This document shows, one piece after another, positions 37,437 through 39,755 of a stretch of 64,000 nucleotides of DNA. The notes below the pieces were generated by a model. It was not told the DNA's origin and made no database searches. It saw nothing but the letters and a program-made list of their open reading frames with translations. Each line of letters begins with the position of its first letter. Positions within the stretch are counted from its first letter, which is position 1. Source of the stretch: Paenimyroides ummariense (GTDB lineage Bacteria; Bacteroidota; Bacteroidia; Flavobacteriales; Flavobacteriaceae); the NCBI RefSeq assembly GCF_900115115.1, contig NZ_FOVI01000003.1, positions 62,001 through 126,000 on the forward strand. The letters are read 5' to 3'. The position numbers and the translations under genes are program-made.

Positions 37437-37862
37437 CTAACTTAATTTTGACTGCAATTTATTGAAAACTATTTGATCTACTGGCAATGTAAACGGATTA
37501 TTCGCTGTTAACGGAATCCAATTTACTTCCTGAATATTTTTATCAATGATTTCTAAATTGTGTAAATCTATAATTGTGACAAAAAAATACAGTGTTAAAA
37601 GCTGTTTGCCGTCTTTTGCCAGCGATGGTACAAAATCTTCCTGAATATAAAAAGCATCGCCAACCGTAAGTTCCAGATTCAGTTCTTCTTTAAATTCACG
37701 CTTTAAACAATCGGCAGTTCCTTCTCCAAATTCCAAACCGCCACCGGGCAGTTTCACAACCATATTTCCGGCAAAAGGTTCTTTTAAAGTTAAAAGTTCG
37801 TTGTTCACAATGCATAAAGCATACACCCGAATATTGAAACCTTTAAAGTTTTGTGTTTCCAT
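37437..37862 (-). CDS. NUDIX hydrolase
   Basis: The 141-residue protein has a canonical Nudix box: GGGLEFGEGTADCLKREFKE followed by EL (GX5EX7REUXEEXGU pattern, with Leu in place of the final Gly). NUDIX enzymes hydrolyse nucleoside diphosphates linked to other groups; substrate unknown. An ADP-ribose or dinucleotide role cannot be assigned. A TATTTTTG motif lies just upstream of the start (37874-37867). Confidence 0.85.
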   Translation of the reverse strand: METQNFKGFNIRVYALCIVNNELLTLKEPFAGNMVVKLPGGGLEFGEGTADCLKREFKEELNLELTVGDAFYIQEDFVPSLAKDGKQLLTLYFFVTIIDLHNLEIIDKNIQEVNWIPLTANNPFTLPVDQIVFNKLQSKLS

Positions 37863-37968: not shown

Positions 37969-38044
37969 TATCGGTTTTAAAGACGATATTCTAAATTATC
38001 GGTTAAATAGACGATATTTTAAACTATCGGTTAATTAAGCGATA
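37969..38044 (+). promoter_or_regulatory. Three identical-spacing operator-like dyads upstream of satD
   Basis: Three copies of TATCG-N10-CGATA lie at 37969-37988, 37997-38016 and 38025-38044, each starting exactly 28 bp after the last. The half-sites are identical in all copies and each left half is followed by GTT. The inner 10 bp vary and are AT-rich. The last dyad ends 34 bp before the satD ATG and overlaps the expected -33 region. The most direct reading is an operator array for the HTH-containing SatD-like protein. Confidence 0.65.
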
Positions 38045-38051
38045 TTTTTTA

Positions 38052-38059
38052 TATCTTTA
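38052..38059 (+). promoter_or_regulatory. Putative -7 element of satD
   Basis: TATCTTTA is close to TAnnTTTG (last base differs). It is 19 bp before the satD ATG and 7 bp after the third dyad, so a protein bound there would block promoter access. Confidence 0.35.
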
Positions 38060-38078
38060 GATATTCAATAACTATAAA

Positions 38079-38693
38079 ATGGTTGCAATTATAACAGGCG
38101 ATATTGTATCATCGCGCACTTTAAAACCTGCAGTTTGGTTAAAACATCTTAAAGAAGGTTTGGAAATGTTTGGGACTTCGCCCTTCAACTGGGAATTATA
38201 CCGAGGCGACAGTTTTCAATTTAAAACAACTGTAGAAGATGCTTTATTACACGCTGTTTTATTAAAAACATGGATAAAACTGTTGAAAGAAATCGATGTT
38301 CGTTTAAGCATTGGAATTGGCGAACAAACGTTTGAAGGAACGAAAATTACCGAAGGCAACGGCACTGCTTTTGAATTGTCTGGCGAAGGTTTTGATGCGT
38401 TGGAAAAAAAGAATTTAACAATAAATACCCAAGATAAATTGTTGAACGACACCTTTAGGGTAATGACTGATTTAGCTTTGTTGATTATGGATAAATGGAC
38501 AGATAAATCGGCTGAAATTATCTTTTTAAAGTTGAAAAATCCGGAATTAAATCAAACGCAGATTGCCGAAAAATTGAACAAAAAACAAAGTACCATTAGT
38601 GAAGCCTTAAAACGTGGCGGATTTGACGAGATTGATCAGTTTATAAATTATTACAACCAAACAATGAAACAGTATGTGGCTACTTCTTCTTAA
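38079..38693 (+). CDS. SatD family regulator with C-terminal helix-turn-helix
   Basis: The 204-residue protein resembles the SatD family. The N-terminal domain (residues 1-120) has MVAIITGDIVSSR (D8), ELYRGDSFQFK (D44), VRLSIGIGEQTF and NGTAFELSGEGFDAL. These are arranged like the conserved strands of class III nucleotidyl-cyclase-fold domains, which is my inference. The C-terminus has a clear HTH: LNQTQIAEKLNKKQSTISEAL (residues about 158-178). It is the first gene of a satD-DUF3307-yjbR operon (20-bp and 4-bp overlaps) and is preceded by three dyads, so autoregulation is likely. The ligand is unknown. Confidence 0.8.
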   Translation: MVAIITGDIVSSRTLKPAVWLKHLKEGLEMFGTSPFNWELYRGDSFQFKTTVEDALLHAVLLKTWIKLLKEIDVRLSIGIGEQTFEGTKITEGNGTAFELSGEGFDALEKKNLTINTQDKLLNDTFRVMTDLALLIMDKWTDKSAEIIFLKLKNPELNQTQIAEKLNKKQSTISEALKRGGFDEIDQFINYYNQTMKQYVATSS

Positions 38694-39402
38694 ATTTTTA
38701 GCGGCTCATTTTCTGGGCGATTTTGTTTTTCAGACCAAAAAAATGGTTCAGAACAAACACAAACCTGTTTATTTTGCAAGTCATATTGCCATTCATGCCG
38801 CTTTAATGTGTCTGTTTTTAGCGAACGATAATATGTGGTGGGCAATTATTCTGGTAACTGTTTTTCATGCTTTGTTCGATTGGATCAAACTGAAATTAGC
38901 ATCAAAAATTAAAGCTCCAATACTTTTTATTGCAGATCAAATGGTGCATCTTGCTACAATTATCGTGGTTTTAATGATTTTTTCGACATTAGAAATCTCT
39001 TTCGATTTTATAAACAAACCGCAAATCTGGTTGGTTTTGGTTGCAGTTATTTTAGTTACGCAGGTAACTGCCATTTTAATAAGAATTTTACTATCGCCTT
39101 ACCAGCAATATAAAAAGGTACAGGAACATTCGGTACAAATTACAGGCGAAAAAGTGCTGTTTAATGCCGGAAAATATATTGGTATTTTAGAACGATTGTT
39201 TATTTTTGGTTTTGTTGTCGCAAATTTTTGGGAAGGAATCGGTTTTTTATTGGCAGCGAAATCAATTTTTAGGTTTGGCGATTTAAACAATGCAAAAGAA
39301 CGCCATTTAACTGAATACGTTTTAATTGGAAGTTTTTTAAGTTTTGGATGCGCCATTGCAGTCGGTTTGATTTTTAATTACGTTTTACACCATTTAATAT
39401 GA
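38674..39402 (+). CDS. DUF3307 family integral membrane protein
   Basis: The 242-residue protein has about six hydrophobic segments and the family start LLLKFLAAHFLGDFVFQTKK, with HAALMCLFLA, VFHALFDWIKLKL and ADQMVHLATIIVVL. The conserved His/Asp pairs (HFLGD, HALFDW, DQMVH) lie within or near membranes and could form a metal or substrate site. Function unknown. Its start overlaps the satD gene by 20 bp. SatD-DUF3307 pairs are frequent in Bacteroidota, so the two probably act together. Confidence 0.85.
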   Translation: MWLLLLKFLAAHFLGDFVFQTKKMVQNKHKPVYFASHIAIHAALMCLFLANDNMWWAIILVTVFHALFDWIKLKLASKIKAPILFIADQMVHLATIIVVLMIFSTLEISFDFINKPQIWLVLVAVILVTQVTAILIRILLSPYQQYKKVQEHSVQITGEKVLFNAGKYIGILERLFIFGFVVANFWEGIGFLLAAKSIFRFGDLNNAKERHLTEYVLIGSFLSFGCAIAVGLIFNYVLHHLI

Positions 39403-39755
39403 ACAATATAGAAGATTTTCGCGATTATTGCTTATCGTTTAAAGGAGCTACAGAGAAGTTTCCGTTCGATAAAACAACACTGGTATTTTACGTAATGAAC
39501 AAAATGTTCTGTCTGGTTGATATTGAAGAGTTTGAGTATTGTAATTTAAAGTGCGACCCAGATGAAGCCGAAGAATTACGTGCCCAATACAACGGCGTAA
39601 AACCGGGTTACCACATGAGTAAAGTACATTGGAACAGCGTGTACTTTAACAGCGATGTTTCTACCAAACTACTAAAAGAATTAATTGTAAATTCTTACGA
39701 TTTAGTGGTTAAAGGGCTGACAAAGAAAGATCAGGCTGCTTTAAATGAGATGTAG
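39399..39755 (+). CDS. MmcQ/YjbR family protein
   Basis: The 118-residue protein has the YjbR fold marks: GATEKFPFDKTTLVFYVMNK, CNLKCDPDEAEELRAQY and PGYHMSKVHWNSVYFN. Members have a winged-helix-like fold resembling the CyaY/nucleic-acid binding group, but their function is unsettled. The start overlaps the DUF3307 gene by 4 bp (ATGA), so it belongs to the satD operon. A bidirectional terminator follows. Confidence 0.88.
   Translation: MNNIEDFRDYCLSFKGATEKFPFDKTTLVFYVMNKMFCLVDIEEFEYCNLKCDPDEAEELRAQYNGVKPGYHMSKVHWNSVYFNSDVSTKLLKELIVNSYDLVVKGLTKKDQAALNEM

Follow-up and report, generated by a model that had tools for sequence, protein, structure and literature searches.

Why should the promoter region of a satD-like gene in Paenimyroides ummariense carry three copies of the same 20-bp dyad at a constant step, and which protein would read them? 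The features of the locus, numbered within the window (the whole stretch of 64,000 nt of DNA analysed here), are the following.

37437..37862, minus strand: divergent NUDIX gene, whose intergenic region is common with satD here
37969..37988, no strand: dyad 1, exact TATCG-N10-CGATA, with half-sites TATCGG and (reversed) TATCGT
37997..38016, no strand: dyad 2, exact TATCG-N10-CGATA
38025..38044, no strand: dyad 3, exact TATCG-N10-CGATA, 34 bp from its end to the satD ATG (38079)
38052..38059, plus strand: candidate -7 promoter element TATCTTTA, TAnnTTTG-like with one mismatch to the consensus
38079..38693, plus strand: satD-like gene, 204 aa, with a predicted palm domain (1-120) and a C-terminal helix-turn-helix (HTH)
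38580..38612, plus strand: putative SatD recognition helix KKQSTISEALK, codons 168-178, in which E175 (38601-38603) is the best tracker of the half-site letters
38674..39402, plus strand: DUF3307 membrane protein gene, obligate satD partner in the genomes examined
39399..39755, plus strand: yjbR-family gene, probably on the same transcript, a local addition

The three dyads have a pitch of 28 bp (starts 37969, 37997 and 38025), and all that the first-pass annotation had recorded of them, including their end 34 bp before the ATG, is exact in the sequence; the coordinates likewise agree with the gene overlaps given there, of 20 bp for satD/DUF3307 and 4 bp for DUF3307/yjbR. No zero-mismatch TATCG-N10-CGATA besides these three was found in the 64,000-nt window, and the 3.49-Mb genome has seven exact single dyads, three of which are the satD array, against 2.5 expected under a first-order Markov model of the window. 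Under the first-order Markov model, about 1e-12 exact three-dyad arrays at 28-bp spacing would be expected by chance. Written in 6-mers, the array runs TATCGn-N8-nCGATA-N8-TATCGn and continues in this way, and its unit is better read as one 6-bp half-site per 14 bp in alternating orientation (6-N8-6-N8). The dyads proposed earlier are thus real, but their interpretation as three independent units gives way to a 14-bp lattice of alternating half-sites, which fits better.

Homologues of satD are present in 40 of 100 relatives and in 175 of 299 genomes of the family (own genome counted). We collected 149 satD loci (L012-L160), mostly from the same family, and the upstream analysis used 147 of them, L021 and L050 being left out for having less than 200 bp upstream. 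Across these 147 upstream regions, exact 6-mer repeats piled up at direct lags of 28 (1065 vs 10.2 in dinucleotide shuffles) and 56 (354 vs 8.6), and at inverted lags of 14 (285 vs 10.2) and 42 (166 vs 8.0). The lattice score exceeded the 99% point of a null made of 196 Markov-resampled regions in 136/147 cases and the null maximum in 130/147, so that the look at orthologous upstream regions proposed in the first-pass annotation returned the same lattice, spelled in other letters. Between neighbouring exact consensus 5-mers, the gap inside dyads is 10 in 213 of 275 cases and the gap between dyads is 8 in 126 of 238 (the remainder being mostly self-overlapping words), and the 14-bp pitch is equal within and between dyads. 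Eleven of the 147 regions fell below the threshold: by eye, some have no array, in L042-L044 a longer linker separates two TATAAG dyads, the arrays of L100 and L107 are partial, and the TATTAC array of L039 is displaced upstream. In the latter locus, a GTCCCGAAGTTTCGGGATCGGGAC-type repeat stands between the TATTAC array, which lies further upstream than elsewhere, and the satD ATG. At the other end of the range is the highest-scoring array seen, that of L257, in which at least 10 TATCGT half-sites stand upstream of satD in nearly perfect tandem.

Among the satD loci with an array, the half-sites fall into the classes TATCGG/T, TATTAC, TATTAG/TATAAG, TATTCC, TATCTG, TATATG, TATCAC/T and ATTGGC, and in the loci compared the lattice holds its pitch as these letters shift together with the predicted recognition helix of SatD. 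For counts of helix against letters, and for the sister-pair test below, 134 of the 136 array loci were used (L062 and L134, with a shifted frame, being out), with half-sites of L056 and L156 assigned by eye. Helices of the form Q-A-A-x-S-R go with TAC in 16/16 loci, Q-S-T-x-S-E with CGG/CGT in 7/7 and Q-N-T-x-S-E with CGT in 4/4; Q-S-N-x-S-E is accompanied by CTG in 10 of 12 loci and Q-D-A-x-S-K by TCC in six of seven, while Q-S-A-x-S-Q is found with TAG (16/26) or AAG (9/26), and Q-G-N-x-S-Q with TAG in 13/23. At half-site positions 4, 5 and 6 alike, the column with the highest mutual information is residue 175, a glutamate in the window's SatD. To limit the effect of shared ancestry, 66 disjoint sister pairs were matched on the N-terminal domain; the half-site differs in 14 of these, with residue 175 changed in 12, and is the same in 52, with residue 175 kept in 48. 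This residue ranks first of 180 columns on the 66 pairs (p = 2.9e-8), followed by K169 (1.2e-4), and was the top column in 12/12 settings, eight of them distinct.

Could another regulator bind the array, with the SatD helix co-varying through shared ancestry only? Related species do have letters and protein sequence in common, and several columns outside the helix also show raised mutual information. However, residue 175 stays far ahead of the next column on disjoint sister pairs, as just given, and the same letters and residues come together in separate clades (QSTISE and QNTVSE with CG, QSAVSQ and QGNISQ with TAG). The TATTAC array, moreover, occurs together with the matching SatD class: among 34 genomes of the window's genus group, selected from 60 same-genus genomes, the TATTAC three-half-site pattern with at most one mismatch was found in 17/17 genomes having a TATTAC-class SatD and in 0/17 others, 14 of which have no satD match and three another SatD class. 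All multi-copy TATTAC places in the 34 genomes are at satD, and lone one-mismatch places off satD number two (G032 and G008), with one match for the control (G052). We consider it very unlikely that the array belongs to another regulator. Because the lattice is conserved, its letters track the helix, and the TATTAC array goes with the matching SatD, SatD very probably binds its own promoter; the proposal of the first-pass annotation that it binds the array and controls its own operon came well through these comparative tests (arrays in 136/147 regions, covariation of helix and letters).

The lattice was also looked for at 39 further loci, comprising 16 of 80 chosen by organism name and 23 of 29 (L267, of the same genus, included); 38 of the 39 are outside the family by name or kinship, and several are close relatives. 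L167, labelled Chlorobiota, was left out, its coordinates coinciding with those of G330, a genome of the same family. An array over the same threshold was found in 33/39, and half-site positions 4-5 were predicted correctly from residues 172 and 175 in 18/25, a score weakened in that CG makes up 13 of the 25 cores observed and in that several of the 39 loci are closely related. Among the seven failures are two in which TE went along with CT where CG was expected. Outside Bacteroidota the results are mixed: when 12 loci on plasmids and viral contigs were searched by script for dyads repeating at 24-32 bp, six had them. Dyads stand 28 bp apart in two Pseudoalteromonas loci (GTAAC), in Vibrio lentus (TTAGC) and in Segatella, and 29 bp apart in Enterobacter (TCAAC) and in one viral contig (TGGCC). 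The same search found no such dyads in the Klebsiella, Escherichia coli, Pseudomonas fragi and Sphingomonas loci or in two viral contigs; by eye, the Klebsiella and E. coli plasmids have a pair of imperfect AACC/GGTT dyads at a distance of about 28.5 bp.

What binding would do depends on where the lattice stands in the promoter. The Bacteroidota -7 box has the consensus TAnnTTTG, and we take TATCTTTA, with one mismatch, as a candidate for such an element; read as a -7 box, it would place the -33 region inside the third dyad, which is the overlap that had been proposed for this dyad from the expected -33 position. Of the 136 array loci, 79 have TAnnTTTG within their last 90 bp, where mononucleotide shuffles would give 14.5; its offset from the array end, taken in the 77 loci with the motif in reach, is -2 in 18, +25/+26 in 20 and -30 to -32 in 11. 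Such clustering suggests that the motif tends to stand in register with the 28-bp lattice, matches at offset -2 being favoured because the half-site's own TA belongs to the motif. The array reaches or overlaps TAnnTTTG in 38/77 loci and ends upstream of it in 39/77.

We propose that SatD is a local transcriptional autoregulator acting through the lattice of 14-bp half-sites, most likely as a repressor of satD-DUF3307, a reading to which, on comparative grounds, we would give a probability of about 0.8. The 6-bp half-sites that alternate in orientation along the satD promoter, one per 14 bp, would be recognised by the C-terminal HTH of SatD. That the step is the same within a dyad and from one dyad to the next suggests that SatD may fill the promoter cooperatively, as a chain, and since 14 bp is about 1.33 turns, every third half-site would be back on the same DNA face. 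As the lattice overlaps or abuts the -33/-7 region, SatD bound there would most likely repress satD-DUF3307, and the position of the array makes repression by occlusion the simplest common reading, and the most likely one. SatD might instead be an auto-activator, a lattice on or upstream of -33 recruiting RNA polymerase in a positive loop on satD-DUF3307. Activation is possible for the 39/77 loci with the array ending upstream of TAnnTTTG, in which the motif lies 6-49 bp downstream (20 of these at +25/+26), but in the 38/77 loci where the array reaches or overlaps the motif, a protein bound over the -7 box would normally block polymerase, and we find a general auto-activator rather improbable. 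The repeats could also be RNA hairpins of an attenuator or riboregulator and no DNA operator, a short stem being possible for each dyad. Yet in 39/77 loci the -7 motif lies beyond the downstream end of the array, and in a further 18 its offset is -2, which would leave most of the array outside a transcript started from that motif. The pitch of 14 bp is the same within dyads as between them, and the letters follow a DNA-binding helix; promoter position and letter covariation led us to reject the hairpins, which we regard as highly implausible.

For other targets of SatD in the same genome, the single-dyad scan was dropped as a regulon search because the four dyads outside satD are near the 2.5 expected, and a three-half-site scan, in which only zero-mismatch places counted, was used in its place. 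The first-pass annotation had also suggested searching the genome for more TATCG-N10-CGATA sites, and the array proved not to be scattered, with the seven exact single dyads given above and one further array. This second zero-mismatch three-half-site match, at C41:3594 (L005:3594-3641, G000:C41), is one for which about 0.004 would be expected by chance, and a weaker fourth half-site, AGTATA, follows in step after the third. It lies 30 bp upstream of an orphan 130-aa ORF (L005:3672-4064), which has no Pfam match and no homologues in the other 99 genomes searched. The C41 array is probably a second SatD target and perhaps a copied operator. Matches with at most three mismatches in this genome number 63+57, against 28+24 for the reversed-pattern control, which we counted against the main reading.

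The putative operator would serve a well-defined pair of genes. DUF3307 lies directly downstream of satD in 148/149 and 108/109 loci; it is present in 40 of 60 family genomes, with SatD directly adjoining in 40/40 by the listed coordinates, and the one extra SatD match in these 60 genomes (G101) is weak and covers the HTH region only. Judged from this gene order, SatD and the membrane protein DUF3307 are an obligate two-gene module in the genomes examined, and the overlap of the two genes suggests that they are co-transcribed. The satD-DUF3307-yjbR operon described earlier stands in its first two genes, a conserved pair, but not in its third: yjbR is beside satD in 3/149 loci, as is the NUDIX gene, and on this comparison yjbR is a local passenger outside the conserved unit.

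The pair is annotated on plasmids of Segatella, Enterobacter, Klebsiella, E. coli, Pseudomonas fragi, Vibrio lentus and Sphingomonas. It makes up two of the five annotated genes both on a Klebsiella plasmid of 4,424 bp and on the E. coli plasmid pEC34A of 3,770 bp (the L314/L316 set), and five more Klebsiella plasmids of 3,770 bp carry satD. Among the matches listed for the Klebsiella plasmid against E. coli records, at most 16% of its length was covered, outside the satD part, and the Enterobacter satD-DUF3307 pair had no match in E. coli genomes. Searches of phage records with SatD or the enteric DUF3307 gave no match. On three viral contigs (L320-L322), a gene for a SatD relative precedes DUF3307. 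Directly next to satD-DUF3307 on a plasmid of Sphingomonas insulae (L319:3860-8311) are genes whose annotations read Pycsar effector and adenylate/guanylate cyclase, and a TIR-domain gene is close by.

As to the proteins, that of the window had no match to the SatD profile of Pfam (PF16264) at E <= 1, nor had any protein of its own genome; it is called SatD-like because its aligned relatives match the profile, 53 of 65 doing so at E <= 0.1 (best 2.9e-13), and a match over the curated cut-off is found in 14/60 family genomes. Its structure model (mean pLDDT 96.2) ends in C-terminal helices that form an HTH, and the N-terminal half is, as modelled, a palm of nucleotide-cyclase/GGDEF type: residues 1-120 match the DosC GGDEF domain with Z 12.3 (rmsd 2.9, 113 residues), and the Rv1625c cyclase is matched with Z 11.6 (rmsd 3.3, 132 residues). 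All 65 sequences compared have D8 (in GDI) and D44 (in RGDSF), as would suit class III cyclases or GGDEF proteins, and by their motifs the two may correspond to catalytic metal-binding aspartates. A profile comparison with one cyclase found no similarity of sequence to SatD, and the Dpo4 polymerase palm scores like the cyclases (Z 11.6, rmsd 2.2, 99 residues). A Foldseek search with the model gave a best E of 1.8e-3, with no hit at 0.001. A ligand-sensing SatD, as the first-pass annotation had it, would have as its only basis the predicted cyclase-like fold and the two invariant aspartates. The DUF3307 model consists of helices only (mean pLDDT 90.0), with no PDB fold match at E <= 0.001, and the residues H12, D16, H37, H65, D69, D88 and H92 are invariant in 57 sequences.

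What the module does may be approached through its neighbours. In 20 sampled Flavobacteriaceae satD regions (L323-L342), recurrent neighbours were clustered, and a gene that we read from its sequence as mscL lies at most 0.8 kb from satD in 7/20 genomes. Like this one, the neighbours that recur are chromosomal genes, and neighbour clustering alone thus gives no sign of a defence island. None of the PADLOC models matched DUF3307, and SatD was matched only weakly, in the HTH region. These observations would suit a housekeeping or membrane-stress pair whose dose is merely held by the lattice, and so would the name: the SatD family is named after the sat operon of Streptococcus mutans, and satD for acid tolerance, according to PMC11323703. 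Against this stand the patchy presence (175/299 family genomes), the strict pairing of satD with DUF3307, the carriage on enteric plasmids of 3.8-4.4 kb and, once, the place beside genes annotated as Pycsar, and the reading is a plausible one at somewhat less than even odds.

A toxin-antitoxin-like or defence-like role, in which SatD would restrain its membrane partner and the lattice would set the dose of both, is a hypothesis that we hold to be only slightly less likely. In type II toxin-antitoxin operons, antitoxins autoregulate. The module resembles them in a putative DNA-binding first gene that overlaps the second, in a putative repeated promoter operator, and in being patchy and mobile; it differs in that SatD, as modelled, folds into two domains, one of them cyclase-like, and in that DUF3307 is a membrane protein of several helices whose invariant residues resemble those of an enzyme. 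A further likeness is that satD of Streptococcus pyogenes is accessory, present in 178/249 genomes, yet essential in tested strains, as reported in PMC11323703; this would make sense if a toxic partner were set free once SatD is lost, other reasons being possible. Another comparison is offered by Panoptes (mCpol/OptS and 2TMbeta/OptE), a two-gene operon that pairs a nucleotide enzyme of palm fold with a membrane protein, and in which a constitutive cyclic dinucleotide holds a toxic effector off (PMC12657230 and PMC12657218). satD-DUF3307 likewise consists of two genes, for a modelled palm domain and a membrane protein, and the Foldseek list of SatD includes Cas10 palm domains and cyclases, none at E 0.001; unlike Panoptes, SatD has an HTH and an operator lattice, and its partner matches DUF3307 with an all-helical model and not 2TMbeta (Cap15-like). 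More speculative, and in our view unlikely as a whole, is a guard or immune module in which the SatD palm would make or sense a nucleotide that holds DUF3307, as a membrane-embedded metal-dependent enzyme, in check, while SatD would also polymerise on the 14-bp promoter lattice and so couple nucleotide state, oligomerisation and module dose; the pitch would be set by SatD-SatD contacts and the letters would drift with a few helix residues, as a readable protein-DNA code extending from Bacteroidota into Pseudomonadota.

The first-pass annotation had held that no operator was described for this regulator, and the papers listed by literature searches, mostly outside subscription journals, indeed gave no description of a SatD operator or of a regulator role for SatD, nor any similar operators or cyclase-HTH regulators. 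Among these papers, DUF3307 and the 'SatD family' are each named in a single one (PMC8504454 and PMC10326533, respectively), and a paper on Pycsar came up that does not mention SatD. With the lattice, SatD, a family known only by name, gains a likely role, that of an autoregulator, and a DNA target, and is tied to the equally uncharacterised membrane family DUF3307. Because the operator combines a constant pitch with letters that vary along with a few helix residues, the satD loci may serve as a ready-made data set for protein-DNA recognition, and the lattice suits the question of whether SatD binds as a polymer. The purpose of this gene pair on very small plasmids, too, becomes directly testable.
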